DNA of 64,000 nucleotides from a virus, in IMG/VR virus record IMGVR_UViG_3300036781_000821, positions 1 through 64,000 of that record; one strand, written 5' to 3'. Shown here piece after piece: positions 1,755 through 62,892 of this stretch. Both the position numbers and the translations under genes were made by a program. The number at the start of each line of letters is the position of its first letter. The first letter of the stretch is position 1. The notes beneath the pieces were generated by a model that searched no databases, was not told where the DNA came from, and saw only the letters and a list, made by a program, of their open reading frames with translations.

Positions 1755-1784
1755 ATGAAAGAATTAAGGCACTATGAACGATGA
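1755..1784 (+). CDS. Possible 9-residue leader peptide overlapping the rep start
   Basis: The best Shine-Dalgarno here (AGGAG, 1746-1750) lies 4 bases before an ATG at 1755, not before the rep ATG at 1774. That ATG opens a 9-codon frame (MKELRHYER) ending in TGA at 1782-1784, overlapping the rep start in another frame. A weaker AAGG (1766-1769) precedes the rep ATG. Such leaders can couple or limit Rep translation, as known for some plasmids. The signal could also be chance. Confidence 0.3.
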   Translation: MKELRHYER

Positions 1785-3648
1785 GAGGGGAACAACTGAA
1801 AAAGACAACTTTGGGGAAAACGACGGGACCGTACTTCAGGTGTCGGCGGAGACCTTGCCATCGACCGAATTTGTGAAGGTGGAAAAGAATCTGGCGTCGC
1901 TCGGATTCTTCACGCCTTCGAGTAATCGACTCCGAAACACTCAAGAGAAATCGTTTACGATCACGACTGTCGCCGACGGCCAACGGTTAGAGCTGAAGGG
2001 CACCATCATTCCATCCGCGAAATACGGATTGCCGATCACCGCGGACCAGGACAAATGGATAGCACTCTGCAAAATTTTATCGGACATCCTCCAAAGGGAG
2101 GGGCAGGTGACGAACCCGGTCTCGTTCACTTCCGCGGACATCCTCCGGCTCCTTCATAAGCATCGGCACAGCGGAAAGAATTATCGCGAAATCGAAGAGT
2201 GGCTCGATGTGCTTTTTTCAACGACGATCTTCTCTGAAGGTGTTGTGTATCTCGCCAAAGAAAAGCGCCGCGTCAAAGATCGATTTCGCGTCTTCGATCG
2301 CGTGGTGAGCTTCGGCAAAGAACTTGCTGACGGAAAAGTTGCCGACAAGAATTACGTGTGGCTTTCCGACTGGCAGATACAGAACATCAACAACAACCAT
2401 TTGCTCCCGATCGACCTTGAAGCGTACCGCGAATTAAGAAACCACATCGCGAAAGCACTCGTGCCTCTTCTGCAGATTTGGCTCTACGCGACGCGAGACA
2501 AAGGTGTGTTTGAAAAACGATACAGTGAACTGTGCGAGATCCTGAACATCCGGCAGTACCAATACCGCTCACTCATCGTACAGACCCTCGGTCCATCTCT
2601 CGACGAGTTGAAACAGTTCGGCTATTTGGCAGACTGGCAGATCGCGGACACAAGCGACAAACACGGATACAAAATCATTTTGTATCACGGCGAGAAGTTC
2701 CATCGCGATCGCCGCGCTCGACTAACAAAACAGCGAACGCAGGCCGATTCGTCGCTACCCCGTCTCTACGATGATCGCGCGCGGCCGGCCGCGCCGCGCG
2801 AGCATGGAATTCGAACGCCACAATCACACACCCACGCTCGGCCGGAAAAAGTGTTCGATCCAGACCTCATCGCCGAGTTTGTCCGGCGGGGGATTACTGA
2901 AAAGAAAGCCGAGAACCTTCTCGCGAATCTGAAGACCGGCCAAGAACAGAACCTCATCGCGCAGTTGGAGCACGCCGAATACAGCGTCTTGCATTCGCGA
3001 ACGCCGATCGACAATCCCGCCGGTTTCATCATCTACCTTATCGAAATGAACACGCCGGTTCCCGATGGATTCGAGACGAGTGCGAAGCGCATCGCACGAG
3101 AAACAAGAGAACGCCGGGATCATGCGCAACGGGATGCCGAGGACGCGCGGGAACAACTGGAACTCGCGTACGAGGAATATCGCGACGCCGAAGTCGATCA
3201 ATACATCCGGGAGAATGCCGACGCTTTCGAAGCGATGAAGGATGCCAAGTGGAAAGAAGACCAGGCGCGGTTCAGCTTCGCAACCGAGAGCATGGCGCGA
3301 ATGGAAATCCGATATCAGATCCGCGGGCAACTGCCTCTCCTCACCTTCGAGGAATTCTTGACCCGAAGAGAGCAGGGGGGCGATTTTTCCTTGAAACTAG
3401 TTGCGCACTCCCCAGTCGCCGAGTCCCTCCTCGTCATCGCGCCGCCCGAAGAGTTGATCGCCGCGCAGGATCCTTCGAGTGTTCCAGCGGATCTTCCGGA
3501 AGCGGCTCCGGCGGGCGACTCGGCGAACGCACCCGAAGTTGAACCGGAAACGAACCTGGCAATGCCGGAGCCGATGATGATCCAACTCGCCTCCGAACCT
3601 CCTTACCTGGAACCGGGAGAGGCCCCCTCCGAGACAGGTCTCGCGTAG
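1774..3648 (+). CDS. Replication initiator protein, RepA/RPA type
   Basis: The protein is 624 residues. Roughly residues 70-320 resemble the plasmid replication initiator protein A family, with predicted tandem winged-helix segments (regions around KWIALCKILSDIL and LVPLLQIWLYATRDKGVF). Residues after about 330 are a long charged extension with a coiled-coil-like stretch (about 430-530) and a Pro/Glu/Ala-rich tail, probably disordered. It should bind the adjacent iterons and open the origin. Start chosen: ATG at 1774, preceded by AAGG; translation may be coupled to the overlapping leader frame at 1755. The long C-terminal extension is larger than usual and its function is unknown. Confidence 0.82.
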   Translation: MNDERGTTEKDNFGENDGTVLQVSAETLPSTEFVKVEKNLASLGFFTPSSNRLRNTQEKSFTITTVADGQRLELKGTIIPSAKYGLPITADQDKWIALCKILSDILQREGQVTNPVSFTSADILRLLHKHRHSGKNYREIEEWLDVLFSTTIFSEGVVYLAKEKRRVKDRFRVFDRVVSFGKELADGKVADKNYVWLSDWQIQNINNNHLLPIDLEAYRELRNHIAKALVPLLQIWLYATRDKGVFEKRYSELCEILNIRQYQYRSLIVQTLGPSLDELKQFGYLADWQIADTSDKHGYKIILYHGEKFHRDRRARLTKQRTQADSSLPRLYDDRARPAAPREHGIRTPQSHTHARPEKVFDPDLIAEFVRRGITEKKAENLLANLKTGQEQNLIAQLEHAEYSVLHSRTPIDNPAGFIIYLIEMNTPVPDGFETSAKRIARETRERRDHAQRDAEDAREQLELAYEEYRDAEVDQYIRENADAFEAMKDAKWKEDQARFSFATESMARMEIRYQIRGQLPLLTFEEFLTRREQGGDFSLKLVAHSPVAESLLVIAPPEELIAAQDPSSVPADLPEAAPAGDSANAPEVEPETNLAMPEPMMIQLASEPPYLEPGEAPSETGLA

Positions 3649-6385: not shown

Positions 6386-7250
6386 ATGACTGAACCGCTC
6401 CTGTCACCGACAAGCAAGCTCGCCGTGCCGCTCGTATCCGCGACACCGAGACGTTTCATCAATCAGGTCGTGAACGCCGATTGTCTGACCCTCAGCGGAC
6501 ACCACGATCCGGCCATACGTGGACACCAAAAATGCGGCCAAGGAAAGTGGACCCCACAGCGGTTTTCGGAGCCCTACACACACAATAGGAGGCAGTCACT
6601 CTTGAACTTGGGGACTCTGTCCCCAAGCCCCTGGGATTTAACGCATTCGGGCCAGGATTCCCGCACGGACTCACGTATAACCCTGAGGCTCCGGGCGGCA
6701 ACGAGGCCCGGCTCTGCAGCCAGCGATCCGTTGGCCGCATTTTTGGTGTCCACGTATGGCCGCATTTCAGGTGTCCACTGAGGGTCTGACCATTCTTCCG
6801 CAGATCCCAAGTCGAAGCATCGATTTCGTGCTGACGGACCCGCCCTATCTCGCGCACTATCTCGACCGCACGGGGCGCACCGTACAAAACGATCGCCGCG
6901 ACGCCTGGCTTGTTCCCGCTTTCGCCGAAATTTCCCGCGTGCTCAAACCCGGCCGCTTCTGCGTCAGCTTCTACGGCTGGCCCAAAGCCGACAAGTTTCT
7001 TGCGGCATGGAAAGCCGCGGGATTGCGGCCCGTGGGCCATTTAGTCTGGTCGAAGCGCTACGCATCCGCCAAGCGTTTCGTTGCCTACTGTCACGAACAA
7101 GCGTATCTCCTGGCAAAGGGGAATCCCGCTCAGCCGGCTCGCCCGATCCGCGACGTGCTCCCGTGGCACTACACCGGGAACCGCCTGCACCCGACGCAAA
7201 AGCCGGTACCGTCGCTGAAGCCGGTAATTGAAGCCTTCACCGACCAGGGC
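6386..7250 (+). pseudogene. DNA methyltransferase, split by a MITE and 3'-truncated
   Basis: The N-terminal part (6386-6489) ends at NADCLT. After the inserted 294-bp element the gene resumes at 6791 with ILPQIPSRSIDFVLTDPPYL. Removing the element plus one target copy restores one frame across the join. DPPY is the catalytic motif of amino-methyltransferases of the N6-adenine/N4-cytosine type. The coding match stops near 7250, before the expected second SAM-binding block (DPF-G-GST), so the 3' end is also lost. The downstream piece could still be translated from 6756 but would lack the C-terminal domain. Originally it was probably a solitary modification enzyme of the plasmid. Confidence 0.75.
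6490..6783. mobile_element. 294-bp MITE-like insertion with about 50-bp inverted ends
   Basis: The ends read inward as CCTCAG-GGACACC (left, 6490) and its inverted counterpart (right, ending 6783). They share about 50 bp, including two GTGGACACC-ATGCGGCC units. The 7-bp sequence GTCTGAC flanks both sides (6483-6489 and 6784-6790), a target-site duplication. There is no transposase; the interior holds a hairpin CTTGGGGAC-TCT-GTCCCCAAG (6607-6627). Multiple internal end repeats resemble IS21-type ends, so a relative of that family may have moved it. That family link is inferred. Confidence 0.75.
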
Positions 7251-7307
7251 ATTTCTACTGTAAGAGAAGCGGATGACTGGAAGGAAGCACGGGAGCTGGT
7301 GGCTGGA

Positions 7308-7598
7308 TTATTTAGCAGATCGCCACGTGCCAAAAAACAAATCGTCAGCCCACCGTCGTCCCCCTTCTTTCATTGCGGTTGCGGGAGTTGCTTGTAAGAA
7401 TCGTCTAATCTCGTCTCGGCCATACCGGTGGCTGAGCCATCGCCAATCATCGAAGTTGCCCTCGTTGATGAGTCGAATGATTATGGTCTCTTTATCACCG
7501 TGTGGATCGAGATCCGGGAACCGGAACAACCAAGGCCGAGGCTCGCAGGCTTCGGACGGGTGAGATTTGGGCTTGGTTGTACGGTGAGTGGGGGGCAT
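7308..7598 (-). CDS. DUF6922-like small protein, possibly a remnant
   Basis: Residues about 20-75 read like a small domain seen next to nucleotidyltransferase or antitoxin genes: FPDLDPHGDKETIIIRLIN, then DDWRWLSHRYGRDEIRRFL and a terminal Trp motif. The name DUF6922 is from memory. The start at 7598 (MPPTHRTT) is the most sensible, because a longer frame runs into the opposite-strand Solibacter domain. It sits between two broken genes, so it may itself be a leftover. No partner gene is present. Confidence 0.45.
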   Translation of the reverse strand: MPPTHRTTKPKSHPSEACEPRPWLFRFPDLDPHGDKETIIIRLINEGNFDDWRWLSHRYGRDEIRRFLQATPATAMKEGGRRWADDLFFGTWRSAK

Positions 7599-7625
7599 AC
7601 GAGGGAAAGATATTGCGCTGCGGTG

Positions 7626-8279
7626 GGTACACTTTACCTCGGAGCGGAAAGAATCTGGAAGAGCAGTGACTTCGTGGGCACCAAGCTGCCGACCACTCTC
7701 GAAGGGGCGACCGTCACTTTTAATGACATCCCAGCGGCGATCTACTACGTCAGGCCAACTCAACTGAACGTCCAGGTGCCCGACGGTCTGCCAAATGGTG
7801 GGGTCACGGTCAAAGTGACGACGTCGAATGGCTCGGTAACTGCAGGCGTGCAGCACGCAACTGTCGCGCCCGGTCTATTCATCAGCACCCAACTCAAAGC
7901 GAATGACGGCACCATCTACTACTACCCGGCCGCTGTCCACACAGATGGAACTCTGGTGGGCCGCGACTTTATCATTGCCGGCTCTCGCCCCGTCGTTGCC
8001 GGAGAAACCATCCTGGTCTTTGGTACCGGCTATGGGCCGTCGATTCCGCCGCAACCCTCCGGCCTTCTGGTCAATGCGTCGCCACTTGGTGGTCTTGTCA
8101 CTGTCAGCATGGCTGGCAATCGCGCGCTCGTACAATCGGCCACGCTGGTCTCCCCAGGCCTCTACCAATTCAATATGATTGTTCCGCTAGGCCTCAATTC
8201 CGGCTTTGACTATGCAATGCAGATCGGGTTCTTGGGTGGGGCACAGTCGCAGGTGGGAATCTATCTCCCTATTCAGTAG
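7626..8279 (+). pseudogene. 5'-truncated Solibacter C-terminal domain (TIGR03437)
   Basis: From about residue WKSSDFVGTKLP onward the frame matches the repeated Solibacter/Acidobacteria extracellular C-terminal domain: YYVRPTQLNVQVP, GETILVFGTGYGP and SPGLYQFNMIVP are typical blocks. The expected long upstream secreted protein and signal peptide are absent. The frame upstream of about 7626 is antisense to the gene at 7308-7598. It is therefore the 3' remnant of a large exported protein, kept beside other broken genes. It is the best taxonomic marker in the window. Confidence 0.7.
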
Positions 8280-9757: not shown

Positions 9758-10594
9758 GTGCCTCTTCCTGCGTGGCTGGATGCACTTCGCCAAACGGAGG
9801 TCATAGCTGCCGTTCGTAGCCTGCCGGAGACAGGTGGAAATCATTTCCGCGGTCTCCATAAGGATGAAGTCGTTAACCTAGTAATCGGGGGCGGTCAGGC
9901 TGATTTCGACCTGCCGTACAAGCACCTCACCGCCAGGGATCGGGCGCTGCTCTACGCCTACTTTAACCAGCTTGGACATCTTGAGGAACTTCACGAAGCG
10001 TTCACGCAGCTCTTCGGCACAGGGCGACCAGATCAGCCACTCATCGTAGTAGACGTGGGGTGCGGACCGTTTACTGGCGGACTGGCTCTGGCAGCCGTCC
10101 TCGGCCCTGAGATTCCATTCAGCTATATTGGCGTTGATCGCTCATTAGCGATGCGCGAATTAGGCGAGCACTTCGCTAGCGCTGCGGAGCGCGTTGGCGC
10201 GTTCAATTGCGCTGGGCGGAAGTGGGTACAAGACGTAAACGCCATTGACTGGACCAACGCACCAGGATGGCGCCCAGTTCTGGTTATTGCGTCTTATCTT
10301 TTGGCGAGCCCAACGCTGAATGCGGAAGCCCTAGTTGCGGAGCTCGATCTACTTTACACACGTTTCGGAAGGGGATCCGTGACAATTTTGTACACCAACT
10401 CGCCGAACTCTACACCGAATCGGAGCTTTGCGGCTTTCAGAGCAGCCCTCGAAATGCGGGGCTTCGCCGTAATCGCTGACGATCATGGATCGATCACTAT
10501 CAACCGGTACCAGGGCTCTAAGGAACGAAAACTCCGGTATGCGCTGCTCCATCGCGGAGAACAGCGGATTCTCGATGTCCAGGAACCCCGATGA
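9758..10594 (+). CDS. SAM-dependent methyltransferase-like protein
   Basis: A class I SAM-binding motif is visible, VDVGCGPFTGG (residues 98-108), followed by GVDRS (125-129) for the ribose contact. No DNA-methylase DPPY/SPPY motif is present. The later VIASYLLAS segment resembles motif IV of RNA-methyltransferase-like (Rsm22-type) enzymes more than DNA methylases, so RNA or another substrate is possible. The start is GTG 9758 with GGAGGT 5 bases upstream. Its stop overlaps the next gene by 4 bp, so the three genes to 14492 form a tightly coupled operon. The substrate cannot be deduced. Confidence 0.65.
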   Translation: MPLPAWLDALRQTEVIAAVRSLPETGGNHFRGLHKDEVVNLVIGGGQADFDLPYKHLTARDRALLYAYFNQLGHLEELHEAFTQLFGTGRPDQPLIVVDVGCGPFTGGLALAAVLGPEIPFSYIGVDRSLAMRELGEHFASAAERVGAFNCAGRKWVQDVNAIDWTNAPGWRPVLVIASYLLASPTLNAEALVAELDLLYTRFGRGSVTILYTNSPNSTPNRSFAAFRAALEMRGFAVIADDHGSITINRYQGSKERKLRYALLHRGEQRILDVQEPR

Positions 10595-11688
10595 AGCTAC
10601 CCACATGGGATGAATTAATTCTAGAACAGCTGAACGTAATGGAGCATCCATTAGACCAACCGCTATTTGTGGCAGGTCCGCCTGGTTCAGGGAAGACAGT
10701 CTTGGCGGTGCGCCGGGCGGAAATGGCTTCCGATAAAGGTCAACCTGTGGCCCTCGTAACATATAACCGCATGCTGCGAAGATTAGCCGCGATCCTGACT
10801 GGTGGTGATACCGTTGCGAATACGATGCACCGCTTTGCGTACCTCGATTATCGGAACCGAACGGGTACCGCTCCTCCCGGGTTCTTGTACCGCCCGAGCT
10901 ACGACTACGATTGGGATACGATGTTGGCGACGCTGGATGGACACGCCAACGCTGAAGCCAACTGGGATCATGTTGTGGTAGATGAGGGACAGGACCTTCC
11001 TGAAGGGTTTTTTCGATACCTTCGTCGACACGCCGCTCGTGTATTAACTGTTTTTGCAGACGAGGACCAAGCTCTAGACGATCGCAGAACGACTTTGACG
11101 CAGATTCGGACAGGGGCAGAACTCCCGAATCCTATTCTGCTTAAGGAGAATCACCGAAACCGTCCCGAAATTGCGGCGGTGGCTGAGCACTTCCATAGCG
11201 GCGTGCTGCCCGCTGCCACGCCGCGGCGACCTGTCCTCGGGCAACGACCGCGGCTGATCCAGAGGCCGTCAATCGTCGACACCGTCGAGCTAATCGCAAC
11301 ATGGCTTGAGAATCGTGGGGGAACCATCGGCGTCATTGTTGCCAAGAACTCAATGGCTGAGCGTGTTCGCCAGGCACTGACGAGCCGCTTATCCGGAAGG
11401 CGCGTCGATTGCTACACTTCGGGAAGGAACAATGAAGACCAGATTCAGCTTCTCGATGACGGTGTTACGATTCTGAACAAGAAGTCTGTCAAGGGACAGG
11501 AGTTTGACTCGGTGTTCCTTCTGGAGTTGGAACAGTTTGTTCCGTGTGCGACCGAGGTGATGAAACGGGGCATGTACATGATGTGTTCGCGAGCGCGTGA
11601 CCATCTATTCTTAGTGTATGGAGCCGCCGGCTTGACTGCCGCTGCGATGAAAGCGTTGCCGGGAGCCGATGTTCTGGAGCGTGGATGA
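10591..11688 (+). CDS. Compact UvrD-like superfamily 1 helicase/ATPase
   Basis: The SF1 motifs are present in order: Walker A GPPGSGKT (29-36), motif II DEGQ (131-134), FADEDQ (155-160), KGQEFD (301-306) and motif VI MYMMCSRARDHL (328-339). At 365 residues it is about half the size of UvrD or Rep and lacks the 1B/2B insertions, so it is a minimal two-domain motor. It overlaps both neighbours by 4 bp (10591-10594 and 11685-11688), which implies translational coupling and fixed stoichiometry. It probably acts on nucleic acid together with the flanking methyltransferase-like and AlkB-domain proteins. Confidence 0.82.
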   Translation: MKLPTWDELILEQLNVMEHPLDQPLFVAGPPGSGKTVLAVRRAEMASDKGQPVALVTYNRMLRRLAAILTGGDTVANTMHRFAYLDYRNRTGTAPPGFLYRPSYDYDWDTMLATLDGHANAEANWDHVVVDEGQDLPEGFFRYLRRHAARVLTVFADEDQALDDRRTTLTQIRTGAELPNPILLKENHRNRPEIAAVAEHFHSGVLPAATPRRPVLGQRPRLIQRPSIVDTVELIATWLENRGGTIGVIVAKNSMAERVRQALTSRLSGRRVDCYTSGRNNEDQIQLLDDGVTILNKKSVKGQEFDSVFLLELEQFVPCATEVMKRGMYMMCSRARDHLFLVYGAAGLTAAAMKALPGADVLERG

Positions 11689-14492
11689 GCGTAAAGCAGA
11701 TTCCAATGGATTTCGTAGTTCCGGAAAGGAGGATGGACGGCCCCGTTGCTATGGGAAGCCTTTGGCTCGGCCTCACGGTGGATCATCGTGTTCTCTTTGA
11801 GGGACTTCAGGATGATTGGCTGCGCCCGCGTGAAGGAACTCACGGCTACGTCTTGGGTCGTCGAGCTTTCCCTGTCAATCGCGACGAACTCGCTGAGGGG
11901 CATCGCATTCTTGTTCGCATAAAACTAGATCCTACGCACCTCCCCCGATTGCCGGTTTATCGTCTTCAGGCTGGCGAATGGGCGCTTTCTTCAGTCCTTG
12001 CTGATGGGCCGGGCGATTCTCCTATCTTCTGGCCCGGCGTCATCCCGACCTTCGCCATATCAGACTTATTGGTCTCTTCAGATGAAGAGAGAGCACGGCT
12101 TGCCGGATTGGCCCGGCAGGTTTCGAACGTGGCACTGCCGTCAGTGCCACGCACACTGAGGCCTGGAAAAGACCTTGCTATTCCCCCGAGCGCCCTACCG
12201 CCCGAGCCAAGAGCGGGGATCGAATTGCCCGCAGGGTTAGACGCAGTCCGCGGTTCCATCGCAATGGGGATGTGGGCTATCCCACGAGTGGAACCATGGG
12301 CCGATTTGCTCTGCAAGAGTTTCGGACCCAATGCGATGGAGGAGCTGCCCTCGCTTGCCGGGTACCTTCACTCACCGTGGTGGGTTGCACCGCCCTGGAT
12401 TCGGAGATCGCCTCAATTACCCCTCTCTGGGCAAGAGCATCTATGGCTCGCTGCGATTCGTGTTTTCAGTAGGGCGCGCGCGGCACCGCAATTATTGGAA
12501 TCCGACCTGGTACAACAAATTGTTGAAGATGCCGGGCGCACCGCGTCGGACGACGACTTGCGCCGTCTCGGGGCTTGGGCAGACGAAACAAACCTGATAC
12601 TCCGAGGAAATACTCGACTCGAATTAAAAGATTGGAAATTGAATCCAGTCAGTAAGGCCATCCAGCTGGTGTTGGCACGCCCAGATCCCTCAAGTTTCGC
12701 GAAGTGGAAAGACGACCTTCCCTCGTTGCCACCGACTATCTGGTTCTCGGCCGCGGCCCTGTGTGGGCTCGTACATGGGTATCGGCGCCTTCCGATGTCG
12801 TTCAGGGGAGACGTCGAACAGCGACGTTTATTTGCGATTTATGCCCTTCATGCACTCGGTCCTGCGCCGCTCCCTGAAAACTGGGCCGCTTTAGTGCGAG
12901 CGGCCCCAGAATGGCATCGGGACTCAGGCGACATTGTGTTTTCCTGGTCGCGAACCGTGTATGCGCGAAAGGCTGAACACGCACGAGCAAAATGGTTCAC
13001 CTCGGATTTGGAGGACATAGCCGTCAGGAAGTCGGCAGAAGAAATTAGTCGGGCCAATCGGTGGCCTTGTGTTACTACCAGGGTCATTGTCCCAGGATGC
13101 GAGGTCCCGTTCTCCGGTGAATCCGTAGAAGTAATCGCGGGTCCACCGCAACATCTGGCGATGAAGGGCCGTACAGAATTCACGCTGCCTCCCGACGCGG
13201 TGTTTGAGCCGATTCTTGATCCAAAAGAATTCCGTCGGTGTATTGTGACCGAGGGGGCCACCGTTCCTATACCGGGGCCGCCGCAGCGAATCCTGCCGAC
13301 TGCAGTATCGATAGAGGTTCCGAAGCCGATCGGTGTTCCTGGGTTAGCTTATGTCCGAGAGTTTTTAACTGAGGCTCAACAGGCAGACCTGATTGCAATT
13401 ATCGATAAAGGCGAATGGAATTCTGAGCTTCGCCGCCGAGTTCAGCATTTCGGGTGGCGCTACGACTACAAGACTCGCGAGATCGATATGTCGATGAGAC
13501 TAGGTCCCTTACCTCCATGGGCGAGCGCGTTAGCAGAGAGGCTTAATTTAGAAGGGCTTCTACCGCACGTCCCTGACCAGGTGATTGTGAATGAGTACGT
13601 TGAGAATCAGGGAATCAGTAGGCACATTGACTGTGTCCCTTGTTTCGATGATGGTGTGGCGATGATCAGCCTCCTTGAATCGTGGGAAATGATATTCCAG
13701 AAGAAGGGCGAAGGGACACAAGTGGCCAAGCTACTAGAGGACCGTAGCGTTACAGTTATGAGTGGCGATGCGCGTTACCAGTGGTCACACGAGATTCCTG
13801 CGAGGTACTCGGAGCCCACTGGCCTGCGTCGGCAGCGGCGGGTCTCAGTGACTTTCCGCAAAGTGAAGGTGAGCGACACTCCTCGCCTTCGCGAATCCCG
13901 CGGCCGTTCTCGCAATAGCGGTTTGCCCGCGCGCAAGAAAGCCTTGTCCTCTCCCGTGCAGGTCAAGGTTGATCGAATTCGCGCAACAGATCCGACATTA
14001 ATGGCCACCAGGACCGCCGATGAGTCGCGTGGGATGGCAAGAGAAATAGATGTCCAGTTGCGGGCACACGAAGGAGGCATAGTAGTTGCCGCCCGTCAGG
14101 TACAGGATGGCGACAAGGCACTCGCGGCACGAATCACTGTCGTGGACATCCGCACGTTTCAAGACGGAAAGCTGATCACGAGTAAGCAGTTTCATTCGAA
14201 CGAAGGCCGCTTCCTATACCATGCCATCCAACTTAGAAGAGTTGTGGGTACAGAGGGTGACCTTCATTACGGTGACGAAGGGTTGTGGTGGCTAGTGTAC
14301 CCCATGAAGGGTAAGCAAAGCGTTCAGATGTATTGGCCGGACCGACCGATAGACCACGGCAAACAACTACCACCTGGGAGATATTGTGCTGCGTTAGAAA
14401 TCTGGATTGGAGAGAAGAGTCTTCGGTTTGAGGCGCTCTGGGAAATTGACGCAGAACACAGGGTTACGACTTCTAGGATCGAGCGCAAATGA
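11685..14492 (+). CDS. Large protein with AlkB-like 2OG-Fe(II) dioxygenase domain
   Basis: In this 935-residue protein, residues about 548-727 match the AlkB fold. The iron ligands are HID (H647, D649) and H702, and RVSVTFR (719-725) fits the AlkB RxNxTxR 2-oxoglutarate/substrate motif. AlkB enzymes remove alkyl groups from nucleobases by oxidation. Residues 1-540 contain an unrecognised, mostly globular region; residues about 750-930 form a second unknown domain. AlkB alone is about 200 residues, so this is an unusual multidomain form. It is the last gene of the operon and may sense or edit modified bases in concert with the helicase and methyltransferase-like protein. Confidence 0.78.
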   Translation: MSVKQIPMDFVVPERRMDGPVAMGSLWLGLTVDHRVLFEGLQDDWLRPREGTHGYVLGRRAFPVNRDELAEGHRILVRIKLDPTHLPRLPVYRLQAGEWALSSVLADGPGDSPIFWPGVIPTFAISDLLVSSDEERARLAGLARQVSNVALPSVPRTLRPGKDLAIPPSALPPEPRAGIELPAGLDAVRGSIAMGMWAIPRVEPWADLLCKSFGPNAMEELPSLAGYLHSPWWVAPPWIRRSPQLPLSGQEHLWLAAIRVFSRARAAPQLLESDLVQQIVEDAGRTASDDDLRRLGAWADETNLILRGNTRLELKDWKLNPVSKAIQLVLARPDPSSFAKWKDDLPSLPPTIWFSAAALCGLVHGYRRLPMSFRGDVEQRRLFAIYALHALGPAPLPENWAALVRAAPEWHRDSGDIVFSWSRTVYARKAEHARAKWFTSDLEDIAVRKSAEEISRANRWPCVTTRVIVPGCEVPFSGESVEVIAGPPQHLAMKGRTEFTLPPDAVFEPILDPKEFRRCIVTEGATVPIPGPPQRILPTAVSIEVPKPIGVPGLAYVREFLTEAQQADLIAIIDKGEWNSELRRRVQHFGWRYDYKTREIDMSMRLGPLPPWASALAERLNLEGLLPHVPDQVIVNEYVENQGISRHIDCVPCFDDGVAMISLLESWEMIFQKKGEGTQVAKLLEDRSVTVMSGDARYQWSHEIPARYSEPTGLRRQRRVSVTFRKVKVSDTPRLRESRGRSRNSGLPARKKALSSPVQVKVDRIRATDPTLMATRTADESRGMAREIDVQLRAHEGGIVVAARQVQDGDKALAARITVVDIRTFQDGKLITSKQFHSNEGRFLYHAIQLRRVVGTEGDLHYGDEGLWWLVYPMKGKQSVQMYWPDRPIDHGKQLPPGRYCAALEIWIGEKSLRFEALWEIDAEHRVTTSRIERK

Positions 14493-15513: not shown

Positions 15514-18500
15514 ATGTCTTGCGAGTCTTCGTCTAGCGAAGCCCTGACTCGGCAGTTCTATAACTGGGAAGTCCGGGGAAGGGGATGGGAAGTCTGGGGC
15601 CAGCCGGTTGAGCTGGAGCCGCCGTTCCGTCCTTTCTTCGGTCACTTCCTCGCGGGGATGCCCGGTACCCGAAAAGATGACGGTCGAAAACCGACGTTTC
15701 TAAGTTCGTTCTTCGATCGGCTCAAACCGATGGGTACCGCCCCTGAGTTGATTGCCACCGAGGAGGAACCGGCAGCCACGTACCTGACGGATGAACCCTC
15801 CATTCTTGAAATACAGACCGCGCTTCCGCCGGAGATGAAGATCACCAAAGATGCTGCCAGCCAATTCCTGCTCAGTCTGGGACACGTCTCCCGTCCGGTC
15901 AGTTTCGAGGTTATCGGCACAGGCGAATCCATCGTGGTGCAAATGGCCTGTGCTCGACCCGATCACCGCCAGATCCGCGAACAACTGCAAGCGTACTTCC
16001 CAGACGCGATCCTCACGGAGCGACACGGACACCTGGGAGCGCTATGGGATGAAACCGGGGCACGCGAGAGCGTTGCCGTTGATTTCGGTTTATCGAAAGA
16101 GTTCATGCGTCCTCTACGTTCTTACGAACGGTTCGATCCTGATCCGTTGGCCGGTCTCATTGGAACCATGGCCGAACTATCGAAAGATGAAGTTGCCGTA
16201 TTCCAGGTGCTCTTCACCCCAGTACGGCATGCATGGCCGGAGAGCATCATTAGGGCAGTAACCGATGCAGAAGGCAACTCCTTCTTCCTTGATGATCCGT
16301 CCATGATCAAACTGGCTGCGGATAAAGTATCGTCGCCGCTCTTTGCCGCGGTCGTCCGCGTTGCCGCTCAGAGCCCACGGAGAAAGAGGGCGTGGCGGAT
16401 CGTCCAAGGCATCGGCAAATCACTCCGCCAATTTGCCGATGCTGCCAGCAATGAGTTCATTCCGCTTGCAAACGATGACTATGAGGATGGGCAACACGCG
16501 CGTGATGTCGTCGCGCGAGCGAGTTGCCGTTCGGGCATGCTGCTCAACTGCAATGAGCTGCTCTCACTTGTTCATCTACCATCGGCGTCCGCACGGACAG
16601 TCAAGCTCAAGCGGGAAGAACGGCGGACGAAGGCGGCGCCAGTTCTCGCATTCGGCCACAAGCTTGCCATAGGCGAGAATCACCACGCCGGCAAAACCAA
16701 ACACATAACGATGAGTCCCGACCAGCGGGTACGGCATATGCACGTTATTGGGACATCCGGGAGTGGTAAAAGCACGCTCCTGTTGAACATGATTGCTGAG
16801 GACATTCGGAACGGGGAAGGCCTGGCGGTGCTCGATCCCCATGGGGATTTGATTGACCAGGTGCTCGGTCACATTCCCGAGGAGCGGATCGGTGACGTGG
16901 TGCTCGTTGATCCCTCTGACGAAGCCTATCCCATCGGATTCAACATTCTCTCCGCTCACTCCGAGCTTGAACGGAATCTTCTCGCGTCGGATCTGGTTTC
17001 AGTCTTTCGCAGACTCTCGACCTCCTTTGGCGATCAAATGACCACCGTGCTGGCCAACGCCATCATGGCATTTCTAGAGAGCGATGAAGGGGGGACTCTC
17101 TCGGACCTTCGAAGGTTTCTCGTTGAGCCTGGCTTCCGAGCCGAGTTTCTCCAGTCGGTTCGCGACCCTGAGATTGTGTACTACTGGGAGAAAGAATTCG
17201 CGCTTCTCGCGGGTAAACCGCAAGGCCCGATCCTGACCCGGCTCGATACCTTTCTCCGACCCAAGGTCATCCGGTACATGGTTTCGCAAAAGCAGAACCG
17301 CATTGATTTCGCGGCGATTATGAATAGCCGAAAGATCCTCCTGGTCAAGCTTGCCCAGGGTCTCATCGGCGAGGAGAACTCATATCTCTTAGGTACACTC
17401 ATGGTCTCGAGGATCAATCAGATGGCCATGAGCCGCCAGAATATGGCCGCTTCGGAGCGCAAGCACTTCTATCTCTATATCGATGAGTTCCACAACTTTA
17501 TAACGCCATCGCTCGCAGCGATTCTCGCCGGTGCACGGAAATACAACCTCGGGCTGATCCTCGCGCACCAAGAACTGCAGCAGCTTTCGACTCGCGACGG
17601 TGACGTGGCAAGTGCCGTGATTTCGAATCCATACACACGAGTCTGCTTTCGACTCGGCGACTTCGACGCAAGGAAGCTGGAAGACGGATTCTCTTATTTC
17701 AAAGCCAAAGATCTCCAGAACCTCGCGGTCGGGGAGGCGATCTGCCGCATCGAACGGGCGGAGTATGATTTCAATCTGAAGATCACGCCGCTTCCTGCGG
17801 TGGAGCCGGAGGTCGCCGCACGGCGTCGGGAGCAGATTATCGCCTCCTCACGGGAGCGATATGCGACGCGGCGCGAGGATGTAGAGACGCTGCTTCGTGC
17901 CGGGCATTCGGTCGCGGAGGAGCCGTCGGCTCCCGCTTCGAGGAAGACGGCGAAGATCAGGGTTCCCGTTCCGCTCCCGACTGAGAAACTCGCAACGGAG
18001 GAAACCCTACCGGCGGTCGCGACACCGGGCCGCGGGGGAGAGCATCATAAATATCTCCAGCAGCTCATAAAGCGCTGGGCGGAGGCTCGCGGATACGCGG
18101 TCACGATAGAAAAATCGATCCTCGACGGTCTGGGATCGATCGATGTAGCTTTGGAGAAGGGGAACCGTTCGGTCGCGTGCGAGGTGTCGGTGACCACCGA
18201 TCCCCAGCACGAAGTCAGCAACGTTCAAAAGTGCCTGGCCGCTGGCTTTGACGAGGTGATGCTCATTTCTTCGGAGAAGAAGGTGCTCGCCGCCGCGCGG
18301 CACGCCCTGGTCTCGGTGCTCAGCTCCGCTCAGTACCGGCAGGTGAGGTTCCTGACGCCGGAGGAACTCTTCTCTTTCCTGGAAAGTTCGGAGGCCAAGC
18401 CCGCTGCGAAGGGGGCGAGCGCCGATCCGGACGAGATGTTGACCGCCAAGGAAGTAGAGGAGCTCCTCCGGATCGACGTGAAGACGGTTTACAGCTACGC

Positions 18501-18621
18501 CCAACGGGGCCTCTTGCCGTATGTAAAGATCCAGTCGAACCTCCGTTTCGTGAAGAGCGAGATCCTCAAGTGGATGGCGGAGCACCAGTTCAAGCCGACT
18601 ACGCGAAACTCAAGAAAGTGA
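15514..18621 (+). CDS. VirD4/HerA-like ATPase fused to nuclease-like domain and HTH
   Basis: The 1035-residue protein has Walker A GTSGSGKS (413-420), Walker B YLYIDEFHNF (about 650) and the long region typical of TraD/VirD4-HerA DNA pumps (DUF87-like, with a LAHQELQQL motif). After a Pro/Glu-rich linker, about residues 850-960 look like a PD-(D/E)XK-type fold: GSIDVALEKG, then ACEVSVTT. The last 60 residues are an excisionase-type HTH (LTAKEVEELLRIDVKTVYSYA). The ATG at 15514 follows the membrane-protein stop by 3 bases. It is likely a DNA translocase for conjugation or defence. The three-part fusion is notable. Confidence 0.8.
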   Translation: MSCESSSSEALTRQFYNWEVRGRGWEVWGQPVELEPPFRPFFGHFLAGMPGTRKDDGRKPTFLSSFFDRLKPMGTAPELIATEEEPAATYLTDEPSILEIQTALPPEMKITKDAASQFLLSLGHVSRPVSFEVIGTGESIVVQMACARPDHRQIREQLQAYFPDAILTERHGHLGALWDETGARESVAVDFGLSKEFMRPLRSYERFDPDPLAGLIGTMAELSKDEVAVFQVLFTPVRHAWPESIIRAVTDAEGNSFFLDDPSMIKLAADKVSSPLFAAVVRVAAQSPRRKRAWRIVQGIGKSLRQFADAASNEFIPLANDDYEDGQHARDVVARASCRSGMLLNCNELLSLVHLPSASARTVKLKREERRTKAAPVLAFGHKLAIGENHHAGKTKHITMSPDQRVRHMHVIGTSGSGKSTLLLNMIAEDIRNGEGLAVLDPHGDLIDQVLGHIPEERIGDVVLVDPSDEAYPIGFNILSAHSELERNLLASDLVSVFRRLSTSFGDQMTTVLANAIMAFLESDEGGTLSDLRRFLVEPGFRAEFLQSVRDPEIVYYWEKEFALLAGKPQGPILTRLDTFLRPKVIRYMVSQKQNRIDFAAIMNSRKILLVKLAQGLIGEENSYLLGTLMVSRINQMAMSRQNMAASERKHFYLYIDEFHNFITPSLAAILAGARKYNLGLILAHQELQQLSTRDGDVASAVISNPYTRVCFRLGDFDARKLEDGFSYFKAKDLQNLAVGEAICRIERAEYDFNLKITPLPAVEPEVAARRREQIIASSRERYATRREDVETLLRAGHSVAEEPSAPASRKTAKIRVPVPLPTEKLATEETLPAVATPGRGGEHHKYLQQLIKRWAEARGYAVTIEKSILDGLGSIDVALEKGNRSVACEVSVTTDPQHEVSNVQKCLAAGFDEVMLISSEKKVLAAARHALVSVLSSAQYRQVRFLTPEELFSFLESSEAKPAAKGASADPDEMLTAKEVEELLRIDVKTVYSYAQRGLLPYVKIQSNLRFVKSEILKWMAEHQFKPTTRNSRK

Positions 18622-38949: not shown

Positions 38950-39312
38950 TCAGGGAATGGTTCCCGAGATCCCGTCGTCTCCCTGTTCAACGTCGGGTTC
39001 GGATTCGTGCAGTTGCCGCCGCACGTGCGCGGAAAGTCGTAGTTGTTCGGTAAACATGCCCCGCAAGCCCATCGCATAGCCGCACCAGAGCTTGTCCCCG
39101 GTGCGGACGCTGGCCGCGTCCTGGTCCTGGCAAAGGCGCAGAACCTTGCGCTGGAATTTTTCGCCCGTCTCGGAGATGAGGAACGCATTCCAGTTTTCCT
39201 CGTCGGCCTCGACCCACTCGGATGGACGATCCGGCCGGATGGGAGCCAGCAGAATGTCCGAAAGACTCATCAGTGCCCAAATCTTGAGCCGCCATTTCAG
39301 CTTCTGGATCAT
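38950..39312 (-). CDS. Phage protein between scaffold and portal
   Basis: The 120-residue protein has a short hydrophobic N-terminus (LKIWALMSLSDILLAP) followed by a soluble alpha/beta region. It overlaps the portal gene by 4 bp (39309-39312), so it is translationally coupled to it. The family is unknown. Confidence 0.5.
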   Translation of the reverse strand: MIQKLKWRLKIWALMSLSDILLAPIRPDRPSEWVEADEENWNAFLISETGEKFQRKVLRLCQDQDAASVRTGDKLWCGYAMGLRGMFTEQLRLSAHVRRQLHESEPDVEQGDDGISGTIP

Positions 39313-41204
39313 GCCGCCACCGCCATTTCCGATTGCGGCGCGGGCGCGTGACCGTTGCGGATCATGGCGCCGTGTTCCATACCCGCGAGATGCGCAGCCT
39401 CTGCCTTGAGCTGGTTAACGGCGCTCTTCTCCATCTCGGCGAACTGAAACGCCAACTTTTTCGCGAGCTGGGGATTCTGCTTTTGGAGCAGTTGAATGTG
39501 TTGTTCGGTGTTTTGCTTGAGCAGGCCTTCCGCACGCGGGCTGATTGCCTTGCGCTCGGTAAATAGCTTGTGCATCACCTGGAAATTGGTTGCCACGCGC
39601 GTCGCGTGATCCTGGCCCTGTTCGGCATCGACCTGCATTTCGAGAACCGGGTTGGTCATCAGGTCAATGCAATTGGCCTGATCCAACTGCTCGCGCTTGG
39701 CCGCATCCTGACCCGCCACAAACAGCCGTTTCTTCGTCTCAGCGCCACGCACCTCGTAGTACATGGAATAGAGTTCGTCCTGGTTGCAGCGCGGATCTCC
39801 GCGCAGGTTCTGGAACATATCGTTAACGATCTGGACTTCACCGGCGCGGCCCAGCCCATCGGGGTTTCCACTCGGCTCGATGACGTAGGCGTCGGAAATG
39901 GCTTCCTGCGGCAAAATCTGCGTTTGCCCGTCGAAGATGTAGACCAGCGATTCCCCGTCGAATTGGCACGTGAGGCTCCACGCCTGACTGAAGACTTCCG
40001 TGAGCGTCTCGCGGATGGAAAAGATGCGTTCCTCGCTGACCAGTGAGCTGTTGTTTTGCGCGGCTCCCACCGCCCGGGCCGTTTGCGCGTCACCGGACTG
40101 GAGCGTTTGCTGCAAAGCGAAATCGGGACTGCCGACCAGCTCCTGTTGGAGACTGCGGGAATTGAGCATTTCCTGGAGCAGCTCTTTCGGCGGTGGATCG
40201 AACGAAACGGCCGACAGCCCGCCCTTGGTCACATCGCCCGGCTTCAGCAATTCGTTGGTGATGTTGACCTGCGTTCCCTGCGTCGTGAGAATCGGTTTGG
40301 CCTTGAACGCCATGTAGTCGGTCCACATGTTGCGGTACTTGGTGGCGTTGACCTCCTCGCCCATGCCCTTCTCGACCACGCCGCGAGATCCATTCCAGCT
40401 CTTGTCGATGATTTCCTGCTCGAACTTGGCGTAGGGATATTTGTTGTGCTTGTAGGGCAGGGGTTGATCCGCGCGCACGGGAATATCCTTACGCAGCGGC
40501 GACCACCAGACCACGCGCACGTTGCCGGCGTCATCCCGGTAGTAAACCTCCCAGATAATGATCTCTTCGAGATTGTCGGAGTGGGTGAGACCCTCGCGCT
40601 TGTACTTGAGCTTGGAAAACTCGCTCTCTTTGCTGTTTTTGCTGCCATCACCCTTGATGGAGTCAATGAAATCTTCGTGCTGGTTGTAGAGCTTGTTCTT
40701 CTTGTACGCTTCCAGCGACACGCGCTTGATCTCCATGCACCAGTCCGCTTTCTGCAGGTCGGTGGTCCAGGGCGGGACGACGAAGGAAGAGGAGCGAATA
40801 TCGTCAAACGCAACCTTGTTCTCGTCAACGTCGCGGTAAATCTTGATCAGGCTTATGCCGCTTTCGAGCATGTAGTCGATGGATCGCTTCGTCGACTTGT
40901 TGAAATTGGTCTTGCGCTTGAGGCGGTAACTGAAGCAGTTCGCGGCGTTCTTCAAATAGGGAGCGAGATTGTCCTGCTCCGTGCCGAATGTGCAGATCAC
41001 ATCGTTCTGGAAAATAGTGCGGTTGATCTGACCCTTGATCTTGTCGATCGCGGGGTCTGCGAGCTTAACGGGCGTGTCCGACTGCCATTTCTCTTTGCCC
41101 AAACGCCTGACACCATCGCGGCGGATTTTATAGAAGGTGCGCTGCCGGTCGTCGTACTTCTCCCGGTTTTTCAGCACCTCTATGATTTGGTCGTAACGGT
41201 CCAT
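39309..41204 (-). CDS. Portal protein
   Basis: The 631-residue protein has the layout of podovirus portal proteins. It has a helical N-terminal part, a region with DIRSSSFVVPPWTTDLQKADWC, a beta-rich wing (EIIIWEVYYRDD), a central helix with GMGEEVNATKYRNM, and a long Gln-rich helical C-terminus near 560-610 as a barrel. It forms the dodecameric DNA gate at one capsid vertex and docks the terminase. It lies between the scaffold-side genes and the lysis genes. Confidence 0.75.
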   Translation of the reverse strand: MDRYDQIIEVLKNREKYDDRQRTFYKIRRDGVRRLGKEKWQSDTPVKLADPAIDKIKGQINRTIFQNDVICTFGTEQDNLAPYLKNAANCFSYRLKRKTNFNKSTKRSIDYMLESGISLIKIYRDVDENKVAFDDIRSSSFVVPPWTTDLQKADWCMEIKRVSLEAYKKNKLYNQHEDFIDSIKGDGSKNSKESEFSKLKYKREGLTHSDNLEEIIIWEVYYRDDAGNVRVVWWSPLRKDIPVRADQPLPYKHNKYPYAKFEQEIIDKSWNGSRGVVEKGMGEEVNATKYRNMWTDYMAFKAKPILTTQGTQVNITNELLKPGDVTKGGLSAVSFDPPPKELLQEMLNSRSLQQELVGSPDFALQQTLQSGDAQTARAVGAAQNNSSLVSEERIFSIRETLTEVFSQAWSLTCQFDGESLVYIFDGQTQILPQEAISDAYVIEPSGNPDGLGRAGEVQIVNDMFQNLRGDPRCNQDELYSMYYEVRGAETKKRLFVAGQDAAKREQLDQANCIDLMTNPVLEMQVDAEQGQDHATRVATNFQVMHKLFTERKAISPRAEGLLKQNTEQHIQLLQKQNPQLAKKLAFQFAEMEKSAVNQLKAEAAHLAGMEHGAMIRNGHAPAPQSEMAVAA

Positions 41205-59800: not shown

Positions 59801-60145
59801 CTATTGCACAAGACACCGAGCTTCAATCTTTGCGATCTGCCATTTGTGCTTTGGCGTTTCGGCAAACTGGTCCATGCGCTGCCCCTCTTCGAGAACGTCC
59901 TGAACACGGCGTTCAAAAACGGTGTGAAGCGCGAGCAGGTTTTTGCCTGTGATCTTCACCAGCCAGTACGAGAATACGACCAAAACCACATCGTCCTTGA
60001 TTTCGCAGCCGCCGAATTGAAGCCACGGGAAAATCCAGCCCTCAGCCTTGTTAGCCTTTTTGAGCGTCAACGTCTCGCTCATCGTCGGAGCAGGCAACGC
60101 CTTGGGCATTACCCGGTCTGTCACTTTTGTTTCTAACGTATTCAT
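59801..60145 (-). CDS. Phage hypothetical protein next to relaxase
   Basis: The 114-residue protein has an alpha/beta pattern (GWIFPWLQFGGCEIKDDVVL, FSYWLVKITGKNLLALH). It overlaps the relaxase stop by 4 bp, so it is cotranslated with it, and may be a relaxase accessory. No family is recognised. Confidence 0.5.
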   Translation of the reverse strand: MNTLETKVTDRVMPKALPAPTMSETLTLKKANKAEGWIFPWLQFGGCEIKDDVVLVVFSYWLVKITGKNLLALHTVFERRVQDVLEEGQRMDQFAETPKHKWQIAKIEARCLVQ

Positions 60146-62892
60146 CTGCTTACCTCCTGTGCCATGCTGACCCCTTGAGTTTGGGCGGCGGCGACGCTAG
60201 CACGCCCAGAGTTACCGTACGACCGTCCCGCTTGCTGCGTATGGGCGTGAGCCACGTTAACCGCTTGCGCCTTCGCCGCAAGCTCCATTGCCGTCTGACG
60301 CGCCCCCGAGCGATTGACGCTGTCCCGCAGACCTTCCAAGTTACTCGTGAACACCTGGCACGTCTCCCGCGCCCGAGACACCGACACGTAAAACGCGTCG
60401 TGGCGCATGTGGTCGCCGGAGACGATGACGTTATCGACCGTCTTGGACTGTGCAATGTAGCTGGTGGATGCCCAACCGTGTTTCATGTGCCCGAAGTCGT
60501 GATTGATTGAACGACCATCCTTCAGCCGCATCGCCGTCCCGTCCTGCGCCTTCTCCACCTGCACGCGCTCGCCGTTGGTCAGATCCAAGTCCCGGTCGTT
60601 TTTCTTCAGGATCAGGAAATCGCCATCGCAGACTTCGATTGAAGACTGTTTGTACACCGAGAAATTCTTGGCCTGTTTTGCAAGGTCCACTTCTTTCCCG
60701 CCGCGCAACACGCCGTCTTTCCGCACTTCGCCGCCGACGTAGGCAACGCCGTTCTTTGCCGCTGTAACCTCTAAATTCTTTCCCGCATTCGCGCCCTTGA
60801 AAAATGCCAGTACCAGCCCCGGCTGGTAGAACTCCGCTTTCTGCTTTTCCTCATTCGACCAATTCAACGCTTCCAGTTTTGGAATCGTCACGCCCTCTTT
60901 GGCGAGATCGCCCATTTCCTTTCGCTTTGCGCGGATGGCGGCCGTCAGCTCCTCGACCTCGGCATTGGACGGCGTGACCACCACGGTACTGCCGTGCAAT
61001 TGGGAATGAGCTTCGGCCACCAACGTTGCACGCTCGCGTCGATCCACTTCCTTGATCGTTCCCATTTCTTGCAGCTTGGCGAAGGCCCGCTCCGGTTCTT
61101 TCCACGCATCCTTGACCGCCTCGTGATATGCCGGGAATTGTTCGGGATCTTGCCGCACGTTCAAGTCGAGCATTTTGGACGCGAGACGGCTTTCCTTCTC
61201 CATCATCCGCAGCGCATCGCACGCGGTTACCGGGCCATGTTGTTCGGTGTCACCAGAGAACATCATCCGCGCACCATAGCGATGGCATACGTCCATCAGT
61301 TTTTTCATGTCCTCGCCGCCGACCATTCCCGCCTCGTCGACGATCAGCACGCGCCCTTTCATCAGGGCTTGCTCCTCGCGGCAGCCCAGGAAGCTGGCTA
61401 TGGTCATGGGATTCTCGACACCTTCCTCGGCCAGCGACTTCACCGCCGAATGCGTTTGCGCCACCACCGTGCAAACCTTTCCGTTTTGTCCAAGACCGCG
61501 CACCATTTCCGCGATCAGGTGAGTTTTGCCCGCGCCGGCGATGCCCTGGACGTTCACCGCCCAATCCGTCGATTGGAACGCCCAGTCCAAGACTTCCTGC
61601 TGTTTTTCGTTCAGGCCCTTGCCCGTGTACGGAATTGTGCCGAGCTTGCCGTGGGCGCCAACGCCCTCATTGACTATCGCGACCATGTCTTCCTCCCGCT
61701 GATACGCTTCCTTGGTCGTGCATTCGCCGTCAACGGCCAACACCGCCTTCGACTCTTTCAGCACGTTCCACACGGTTTGAACGTCCGAGAAATTGACATG
61801 GCCGCGATTAAACCGGAGCGCAGCGGCTAGCACATCGACTTCCTTGGCGACTGAGACTTGCGAGAAGGTGTGTTTAATCGCCGACTGCACAGCTTCGTGC
61901 GCGGACTGGTAGGTGATGTCCTCGCCGCGACCGGAAAGCTCGATGGCGTGATCCCGCGCCGCCCGAAGCCGTTCGCTCATGCCGGGAAACTTGGCTTCAG
62001 CTCGCGCCTTTTGCATGGCAATGACATCGGCGGTGCTAATCTCGATTAAGTTGTCGGGCCGCGTTTCGCGGTACAAGTGCGAGATCAGGTTGTCCGACGG
62101 GTGAATGCCGTGGGGATTTTTGGCCTTGTCGTTCTTGAACGCCTCGACCGCGGCGGCCACAGCCTTCGATCCCTGGCTAAACTCCTCGCTCTCCTCCTGC
62201 CGCACACAGGCCAGACCGAACCCCATTTCCTTGTCGTTCTTGTACGGCATTGTCCGTAGAACATAGCCGCCGTCTATGCACAGCCCGGCCAGAATGTTGC
62301 GGTAGACCTCGGTCGCGAGCGCCTTGGCCTCATACATCTTTTCGGTTTGGAGGGCTTTCCAACGTCCCTCCTCCACATCCTGGGTCAGGTTCCCGCAGGT
62401 CAGATGGCTGTGAAGGTGTGGATCTAGCGCGCGGGAGCAGTCATGTTCAAACCGCGCATAGATCAAATTCCCGGTCAGCCTGGTCTCGTCTTTTTTCCCG
62501 AACAGCCGTACTCGCGTCCCGGCCTGTTTCTCGACGAACTCCATCGCCTCGCTGACGGCCTGCTTGTGCCACTCGGGAATGCGTTCATCCCCGCCGATCC
62601 GCCACTGGATTGATAGATCCTTCGGGCAGGCGAACACCCAATCGTAAAACGTCCGACCGTTCTCCCGCTCGTGGCTGAATCGTTGGCGAAGCTTCGCGCC
62701 TGTTAAGGGATCAAGACCTTGCCGCATCCTCTCGAAAGCTTGCTCCGTGACCTCACCTTCAAGTCCCAGCAATCGCGCTCCGCGACCTTTCCACGTGCCA
62801 ACCGATTGATCGTTTTTGTCGAGGTAATCCTTATAGGAAAGGTGGCTTACGAAGTACGTGTCACCTCGATAGAGGGGCATTCCGTTGAGCAC
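60142..62892 (-). CDS. MobF (TrwC/TraI-like) relaxase-helicase
   Basis: This is a 916-residue protein. The N-terminal relaxase domain has candidate nicking tyrosines (Y13, Y20, Y23), TWKGRGARLLGLEGEV, and the metal-binding DPHLHSHL (H159, H161, H163). The helicase part has Walker A GIAGAGKT (450-457) and DEAG (519-522), then later SF1 motifs. It nicks oriT and unwinds the transferred strand. The start is GTG 62892; upstream in-frame codons read SKLPHAGHV, which fits the family, so the true start could be a few codons earlier. The coupling-protein partner is at 22929. Confidence 0.88.
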   Translation of the reverse strand: MLNGMPLYRGDTYFVSHLSYKDYLDKNDQSVGTWKGRGARLLGLEGEVTEQAFERMRQGLDPLTGAKLRQRFSHERENGRTFYDWVFACPKDLSIQWRIGGDERIPEWHKQAVSEAMEFVEKQAGTRVRLFGKKDETRLTGNLIYARFEHDCSRALDPHLHSHLTCGNLTQDVEEGRWKALQTEKMYEAKALATEVYRNILAGLCIDGGYVLRTMPYKNDKEMGFGLACVRQEESEEFSQGSKAVAAAVEAFKNDKAKNPHGIHPSDNLISHLYRETRPDNLIEISTADVIAMQKARAEAKFPGMSERLRAARDHAIELSGRGEDITYQSAHEAVQSAIKHTFSQVSVAKEVDVLAAALRFNRGHVNFSDVQTVWNVLKESKAVLAVDGECTTKEAYQREEDMVAIVNEGVGAHGKLGTIPYTGKGLNEKQQEVLDWAFQSTDWAVNVQGIAGAGKTHLIAEMVRGLGQNGKVCTVVAQTHSAVKSLAEEGVENPMTIASFLGCREEQALMKGRVLIVDEAGMVGGEDMKKLMDVCHRYGARMMFSGDTEQHGPVTACDALRMMEKESRLASKMLDLNVRQDPEQFPAYHEAVKDAWKEPERAFAKLQEMGTIKEVDRRERATLVAEAHSQLHGSTVVVTPSNAEVEELTAAIRAKRKEMGDLAKEGVTIPKLEALNWSNEEKQKAEFYQPGLVLAFFKGANAGKNLEVTAAKNGVAYVGGEVRKDGVLRGGKEVDLAKQAKNFSVYKQSSIEVCDGDFLILKKNDRDLDLTNGERVQVEKAQDGTAMRLKDGRSINHDFGHMKHGWASTSYIAQSKTVDNVIVSGDHMRHDAFYVSVSRARETCQVFTSNLEGLRDSVNRSGARQTAMELAAKAQAVNVAHAHTQQAGRSYGNSGRASVAAAQTQGVSMAQEVSR

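Follow-up and report, generated by a model that had tools for sequence, protein, structure and literature searches.

A compact operon of three genes, seemingly geared to nucleic-acid modification, lies at positions 9758 to 14492 of the window, by which we mean the whole stretch analyzed, positions 1 to 64,000 of the 91,887-bp IMG/VR virus record IMGVR_UViG_3300036781_000821. All three genes are on the plus strand and, as a first-pass annotation of the bare sequence had described, their coordinates place a 4-bp overlap at each junction (10591..10594 between genes 1 and 2, and 11685..11688 between genes 2 and 3), the second of which is present in most relatives. Gene 1 (9758..10594, GTG start) encodes a class I S-adenosylmethionine (SAM)-dependent methyltransferase of 278 amino acids (aa), hereafter MT, as judged from its open reading frame, alignment, and structural model. 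Gene 2 (10591..11688), assigned from its reading frame, Pfam, and alignment, encodes Hel, a minimal superfamily 1 (SF1) helicase or translocase of 365 aa. Gene 3 (11685..14492), assigned from the same kinds of evidence as gene 2, encodes a protein of 935 aa in three parts: an N-terminal region (N-region; aa 1–548, conserved from about aa 27; 11685..13328) traced by model, Foldseek, hhalign, and hmmsearch; an AlkB 2-oxoglutarate (2OG)/Fe(II) dioxygenase domain (aa 537–735; 13293..13889) placed by Pfam, alignment, and its match to structure 3thp; and a C-terminal extension (aa 736–935; 13890..14489) defined by alignment. We propose that a plasmid-like phage probably carries here an undescribed defense system built on an AlkB-type oxygenase.

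The catalytic parts of genes 2 and 3 are strictly conserved. Pfam recognizes SF1 domains in Hel (AAA_19, E=4e-10), Walker A (GPPGSGKT, aa 29–36) and Walker B (DEGQ, aa 131–134) fall in invariant columns of a 26-sequence alignment, and the residues of motifs III and VI are invariant or nearly so in the same sequences; the closest solved structures are HelD, UvrD, and GajB. In gene 3, Pfam 2OG-FeII_Oxy_2 matches aa 591–725 above its cut-off (E=8e-16). The iron ligands H647, D649, and H702 and the probable 2OG-binding residues N636/Y638, R716, R718, and R719 are each present in 28 of 28 sequences. The first-pass annotation was therefore right to call gene 2 a 365-residue SF1 motor and to credit gene 3 with full AlkB iron motifs, and both the AlkB and the Walker motifs are kept among homologues. 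Judged by best sequence match, the nearest characterized relatives of the AlkB domain are ALKBH8 proteins (3thp, E=2e-43).

The two unknown domains that had been ascribed to gene 3 call for a correction: the N-terminal ~535 aa are conserved in the family, and residues ~27–535 form a region of their own (predicted local distance difference test, pLDDT, 86), whereas the C-terminal ~200 aa (aa 736–935) are unique to the window copy, being absent from its 27 relatives, and gave no Pfam domain or significant PDB match. A viral structure library yielded no useful match. The best Foldseek matches of N-region aa 28–170 are five DarT entries and two DarTG chains (prob 0.92–1.00, E 0.02–0.3, none at E ≤ 0.001), and comparison of the N-region with eight DarTs gave a weak match (hhalign 6%, E=0.006). 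Direct comparison with the DarT of one relative locus (L018) gave no signal, and no invariant acidic residue was found at aa 133–135, the DarT catalytic positions not being mapped onto the model. From the model, aa 28–170 may conceivably adopt a DarT/Tpt1-like ADP-ribosyltransferase fold. An ADP-ribosylglycohydrolase origin for the helical part of the N-region, prompted by a Foldseek match (prob 0.69) and a motif resemblance, was rejected at the sequence level, as hhalign with 14 such sequences gave 0.3%, no better than the control.

The methyltransferase is less easily named. AlphaFold models it with confidence as a class I methyltransferase (pLDDT 91), and within the SAM motif DxGCGPFT (aa 99–106) the residues D99, G101, G103, P104, and T106 are invariant in an alignment of 28 sequences, whose other members are 35–53% identical to the window copy. 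Pfam methyltransferase matches were all below threshold. PADLOC matched its candidate methyltransferase C3a159 to gene 1 (E=1e-8) and gave no match to DrmM, the DISARM methyltransferase. The best Foldseek match of the model is 8csp_7 (METTL17 by its chain name), with a generic class I fold (template modeling score 0.39–0.56). Neither a [DNS]PP[YFW] motif nor a PCQ motif occurs in any of the 28 sequences; MT is thus unlike the DNA methyltransferases of restriction-modification, and a canonical DNA methyltransferase was rejected as the identity of gene 1. The operon likewise shows no nuclease match in Pfam or PADLOC. The earlier idea of a methyl writer paired with a demethylase eraser, in the sense of DNA restriction-modification, is not supported, because MT lacks the DNA motifs and the dioxygenase belongs with ALKBH8.

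The operon recurs in distant bacteria. The AlkB-domain alignment was scanned against 84,980 genomes, and the counts given here rest on the 80 best-scoring loci, which are not a random sample. An N-extended AlkB occurs at 33 of these loci, and at 29 of the 33 both MT and Hel stand alongside, so that the co-occurrence set beforehand as the test of the operon was found. Twenty-seven of the 29 keep the gene order of the window, and two from Gemmatimonadota (L041 and L081) have MT last; five operon loci (L023, L025, L036, L064, and L088) contain interrupted or partial frames. The operon is distributed across Acidobacteriota, Pseudomonadota, Bdellovibrionota, Gemmatimonadota, Tectimicrobiota, and Cyanobacteriota. 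Four loci (L018, L019, L049, and L060) have an N-extended AlkB without one or both partners, three of the 80 have an MT-AlkB pair without Hel, and 44 have a solitary AlkB with neither MT nor Hel. Since more than 20 complete operons elsewhere align with genes 1 and 2 from end to end and with gene 3 from aa 1 to ~735, conservation of the operon is far beyond chance. No conserved fourth gene was found among the operon loci. In one Vicinamibacterales genome (G001) the operon is present twice, as near-identical copies on separate contigs (L015 and L130).

A search with MT alone, covering 396 Acidobacteriota, 292 Cyanobacteriota, and 16 Gemmatimonadota, found it in three, three, and two genomes, respectively, and all nine loci adjoin Hel and/or AlkB; three of the genomes (G313, G861, and G1029) were new, and the contig of G313 ends inside Hel. 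Single-query searches with the entire 935-aa sequence detected no relatives among either viral or genome contigs, and a thin three-sequence MT alignment found none in the viral ones. The three proteins co-diverge (distance-matrix r 0.88–0.93, 0 of 2000 permutations), to which shared descent contributes. In the AlkB tree, 35 N-extended proteins and one AlkB with no detected N-region form a single branch (100/95) that mixes phyla, placing for example a Synechococcus within Pseudomonadota. This mixing in one branch, together with patchy occurrence (about 1% of sampled genomes), is as expected of a horizontally spread accessory system. Some AlkBs in the operon clade (L060, L068, and L019) have a shortened or undetected N-region and appear to be decaying or simplified.

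A pointer to function comes from the company that Hel keeps elsewhere. A Hel profile was searched in 369 Gammaproteobacteria and 247 Bacteroidota; with two operon-bearing genomes set aside, three of the five gammaproteobacterial matches and both Bacteroidota matches lie in operons that hold DrmA and DrmB. Such DISARM-like operons contain Hel relatives at L004, L007, L008, L014, L125, L126, L128, L139, and L140, with profile matches of E=2e-47 to 7e-75, and DrmA was recognized by PADLOC at E=7e-199 (L128) and 2e-199 (L007). DrmA and DrmB precede the Hel relative on three plasmids (L004, L007, and L014) and in a prophage-like locus (L008). The protein encoded directly after Hel in these operons is homologous to the N-region of gene 3 (hhalign 97%, E=9e-11, 335 columns, against 0.2% for negative control A5), and hmmsearch with the N-region also matches it (E=1e-10 in L139 and 9e-7 in L128). 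The homology covers the N-terminal ~400 residues of gene 3, and neither Pfam nor PADLOC matched the downstream protein at the loci checked. Because both Hel and the N-region are homologous to proteins of DrmA-DrmB operons, the two constitute a module shared with a defense system, and an uncharacterized protein family beside DrmB is thereby seen in two or more types of operon. In one genome (G740), Hel is paired with an N-region-like protein, and the 18 kb read contained no DrmA or DrmB match; at one operon locus (L088) DrmA/DrmB lie within 10 kb. The order in the DISARM-like operons is DrmA, DrmB, compact SF1 helicase, unnamed protein, and NERD-helicase (L128:661-10211; also L126, L125, L139, and L004). 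In a Bacteroidota locus (L140:2043-7061), DrmA and DrmB apparently form one long open frame, as in a fusion.

Other defense genes accompany some relatives. One locus (L018:2555-8639) encodes UvrD, DarT, ADP-ribosylglycohydrolase, and an N-extended AlkB in a row, DarT standing in place of MT, and in a Saprospiraceae metagenome-assembled genome (L074:4857-8546) DarT and macro-domain genes of DarTG-like type lie upstream of MT-AlkB. The MT-AlkB pair is also carried by Picosynechococcus plasmids. In cyanobacteria, these plasmids included, an AAA_33/KTI12-WYL protein precedes MT-AlkB (L002:3722-7396, L003:2894-6582, and L132), and a reverse transcriptase (pAQ5) or a CRISPR RAMP gene (pAQ6) lies near the pair. 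In 100 proteins flanking the operon, PADLOC matched CBASS-type HORMA/TRIP13/NucC, type I restriction-modification, AriA (PARIS-like), and DrmB; in 100 proteins flanking solitary AlkBs, which served as the control, the models shown were mostly AbiEi, SoFic, cyclases, and type II methyltransferases.

Its recurrence in unrelated bacteria, and a motor and an adaptor in common with a known anti-phage family, lead us to favor a role in defense for the operon. In our judgment the chances are evenly balanced that the operon is an undescribed defense or conflict system against mobile genetic elements, carried by a phage-plasmid-like element. Hel as motor and the N-region as adaptor, a pair that the DISARM-like DrmA-DrmB operons also use, would assemble into a complex that engages foreign or replicating nucleic acid. 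AlkB, tied to the substrate of the helicase by its fusion with the N-region, would thereby be delivered to exposed single strands. The dioxygenase and its partner MT could next work one after the other on a single base or nucleic acid, which would be marked or inactivated, or by which self would be told from non-self. On this reading, the most economical one, an MT-AlkB chemical pair that also exists by itself has been joined to a motor-adaptor pair. What we infer is that a complex forms, which nucleic acid it targets, what reaction takes place, and that phages are countered; the sequence cannot tell sequential action, as in eukaryotic ALKBH8, from opposed action as writer and eraser. A bolder version, which we hold tentatively and think rather less than probable, is that this would be the first defense system with AlkB-type oxidation, its DISARM-related motor-adaptor steering the methylation and then the oxidation of invader nucleic acid, and that some of the orphan bacterial ALKBH8 proteins have this as their native role.

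Several observations weigh against a role in defense. The operon encodes no nuclease, protease, or membrane effector, and many operon loci have ordinary housekeeping neighbors, as seen from Pfam matches in the flanks. The control flanks also match PADLOC models (62 models versus 112, with differing taxa). Repair of etheno adducts is possible for bacterial ALKBH8 proteins, which would fit repair; their DNA repair activity is variable and their native substrate is not established (PMC4051686). Since the flank comparison counts models and not genes, its controls are not taxon-matched, and housekeeping neighbors are frequent, enrichment of the flanks is weak support. As a system, the operon has no model in Pfam, NCBIfam, PADLOC, or PHROGs, and searches of an open-access library for AlkB in defense, with DarT or with type III CRISPR, turned up no description of it. 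Neither the defining genes of DISARM nor the nuclease and DNA-type methyltransferase of restriction-modification were found, in agreement with the first-pass statement that no named defense system matches. Its suggestion of a self/non-self system fits the co-occurrence, the motifs, the mobile backbone, and the DISARM-like and DarT links, but not as a DNA writer and eraser. The analysis links several bacterial ALKBH8-type AlkBs to a fixed MT partner and one clade of them to a DISARM-like motor-adaptor; it thus offers a directly testable idea of what a bacterial ALKBH8-type oxygenase does and suggests base oxidation as a further chemistry in bacterial immunity.

It is also possible, although unlikely, that the operon is dedicated to nucleic-acid repair, with Hel opening a duplex or structure, AlkB removing alkyl or etheno lesions, and MT having a regulatory or protective function. 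The invariant catalytic residues of AlkB agree with this, and the human ASCC3 helicase, which opens duplex for the ALKBH3 dioxygenase, is a precedent for pairing a helicase with an AlkB. Yet MT, which has no obvious role in repair, is conserved with AlkB even without Hel; Hel and the N-region are otherwise found in DISARM-like operons; and occurrence is patchy, in about one genome in a hundred. The biochemistry points both ways: R. etli ALKBH8 reactivates an etheno-damaged single-stranded DNA phage as well as E. coli AlkB does, but other bacterial ALKBH8s showed low or negligible repair activity (PMC4051686).

The resemblance to ALKBH8 raises a second alternative, which we regard as distinctly unlikely, namely that MT followed by an ALKBH8-type dioxygenase hypermodifies or rescues tRNA or rRNA opened by Hel, methylation preceding hydroxylation as with the two domains of eukaryotic ALKBH8, perhaps against RNA-damaging toxins. 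Eukaryotic ALKBH8 hydroxylates a tRNA side chain and fuses AlkB with a methyltransferase for wobble uridine, but in Agrobacterium the tRNA-Gly modification was still present in an ALKBH8 mutant (PMC4051686). The best match of the AlkB domain to ALKBH8, at the E-value given above, and the existence of MT-AlkB pairs alone favor an RNA substrate, as does the match of the MT model to METTL17, a mitoribosome assembly factor; that similarity, however, is one of generic class I fold, and a DISARM-linked motor would not be expected for tRNA.

The element that carries the operon looks like a conjugative phage-plasmid, because the record encodes a RepA-type initiator (window 1774-3648), a TrwB-like coupling protein (15514-18621), a TrwC/TraI conjugative relaxase (60142-62892), and an SU10-like portal (39309-41204) that is a weak match (E=1e-4) with portal matches in phages; the same genes bear out the mobile, plasmid-like backbone seen in the first reading. 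The guanine-cytosine content of the operon resembles that of the surrounding DNA and thus gives no sign of recent insertion, and no promoters or terminators above chance were found close to it. A second methyltransferase, of DNA type (N6_N4_Mtase, E=4e-11), is encoded at window 6756-7397, 2.4 kb upstream of the operon. The reading frame at 7428-8279 presumably resembles a TIGR03437-type domain of Acidobacteriota, and may hint at the host. That the operon benefits the element itself, by altering its own nucleic acid or stripping host methyl marks to escape host defense, is very unlikely: such anti-restriction would suit a mobile element of this make-up, the MT-AlkB pairs on Picosynechococcus plasmids, and the proposal that AlkB-like enzymes of jumbo phages reset methyl marks (PMC7824862), but many operon loci sit among housekeeping genes and neither the AlkB nor the MT protein matched any INPHARED phage record.

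Among known systems, Gabija GajB, HelD, and UvrD share SF1 motifs with Hel and match its profile, but the 365-aa core of Hel is far shorter and the GajA partner is absent. ASCC3-ALKBH3 likewise combines a helicase with an AlkB dioxygenase, but ASCC3 belongs to SF2, ALKBH3 to another AlkB group, and the pair has no methyltransferase partner. DarTG and DarT-ADP-ribosylglycohydrolase modules adjoin two of the relatives (L018 and L074), and N-region aa 28–170 are possibly DarT-like; with weak sequence support, this link is one of context and not of membership. Eukaryotic and bacterial ALKBH8 have an AlkB of the same group (3thp) and a methyltransferase working beside it, but here MT has a gene to itself and does not match the methyltransferase of ALKBH8 in any special way, RNA recognition motif and zinc finger are missing, and a long N-region and a helicase partner are added. 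ARMADA type II, which is related to DISARM, is a multi-helicase and methyltransferase defense operon with a UvrD/GajB-like helicase; it differs in its YprA-like and BrxHII-like helicases and PglX-type DNA methyltransferase, and AlkB is not mentioned in its description (PMC12458937). DISARM itself is set apart by DrmA (helicase) and DrmB (DUF1998), neither of which PADLOC matched in the three genes, and by DrmC and a nuclease, also absent, whereas in the operon AlkB is fused to the adaptor-like protein and a methyltransferase of non-DNA type is added; with the DISARM-like operons, it nevertheless shares the compact SF1 helicase and the homologous protein that follows it, in the same order.

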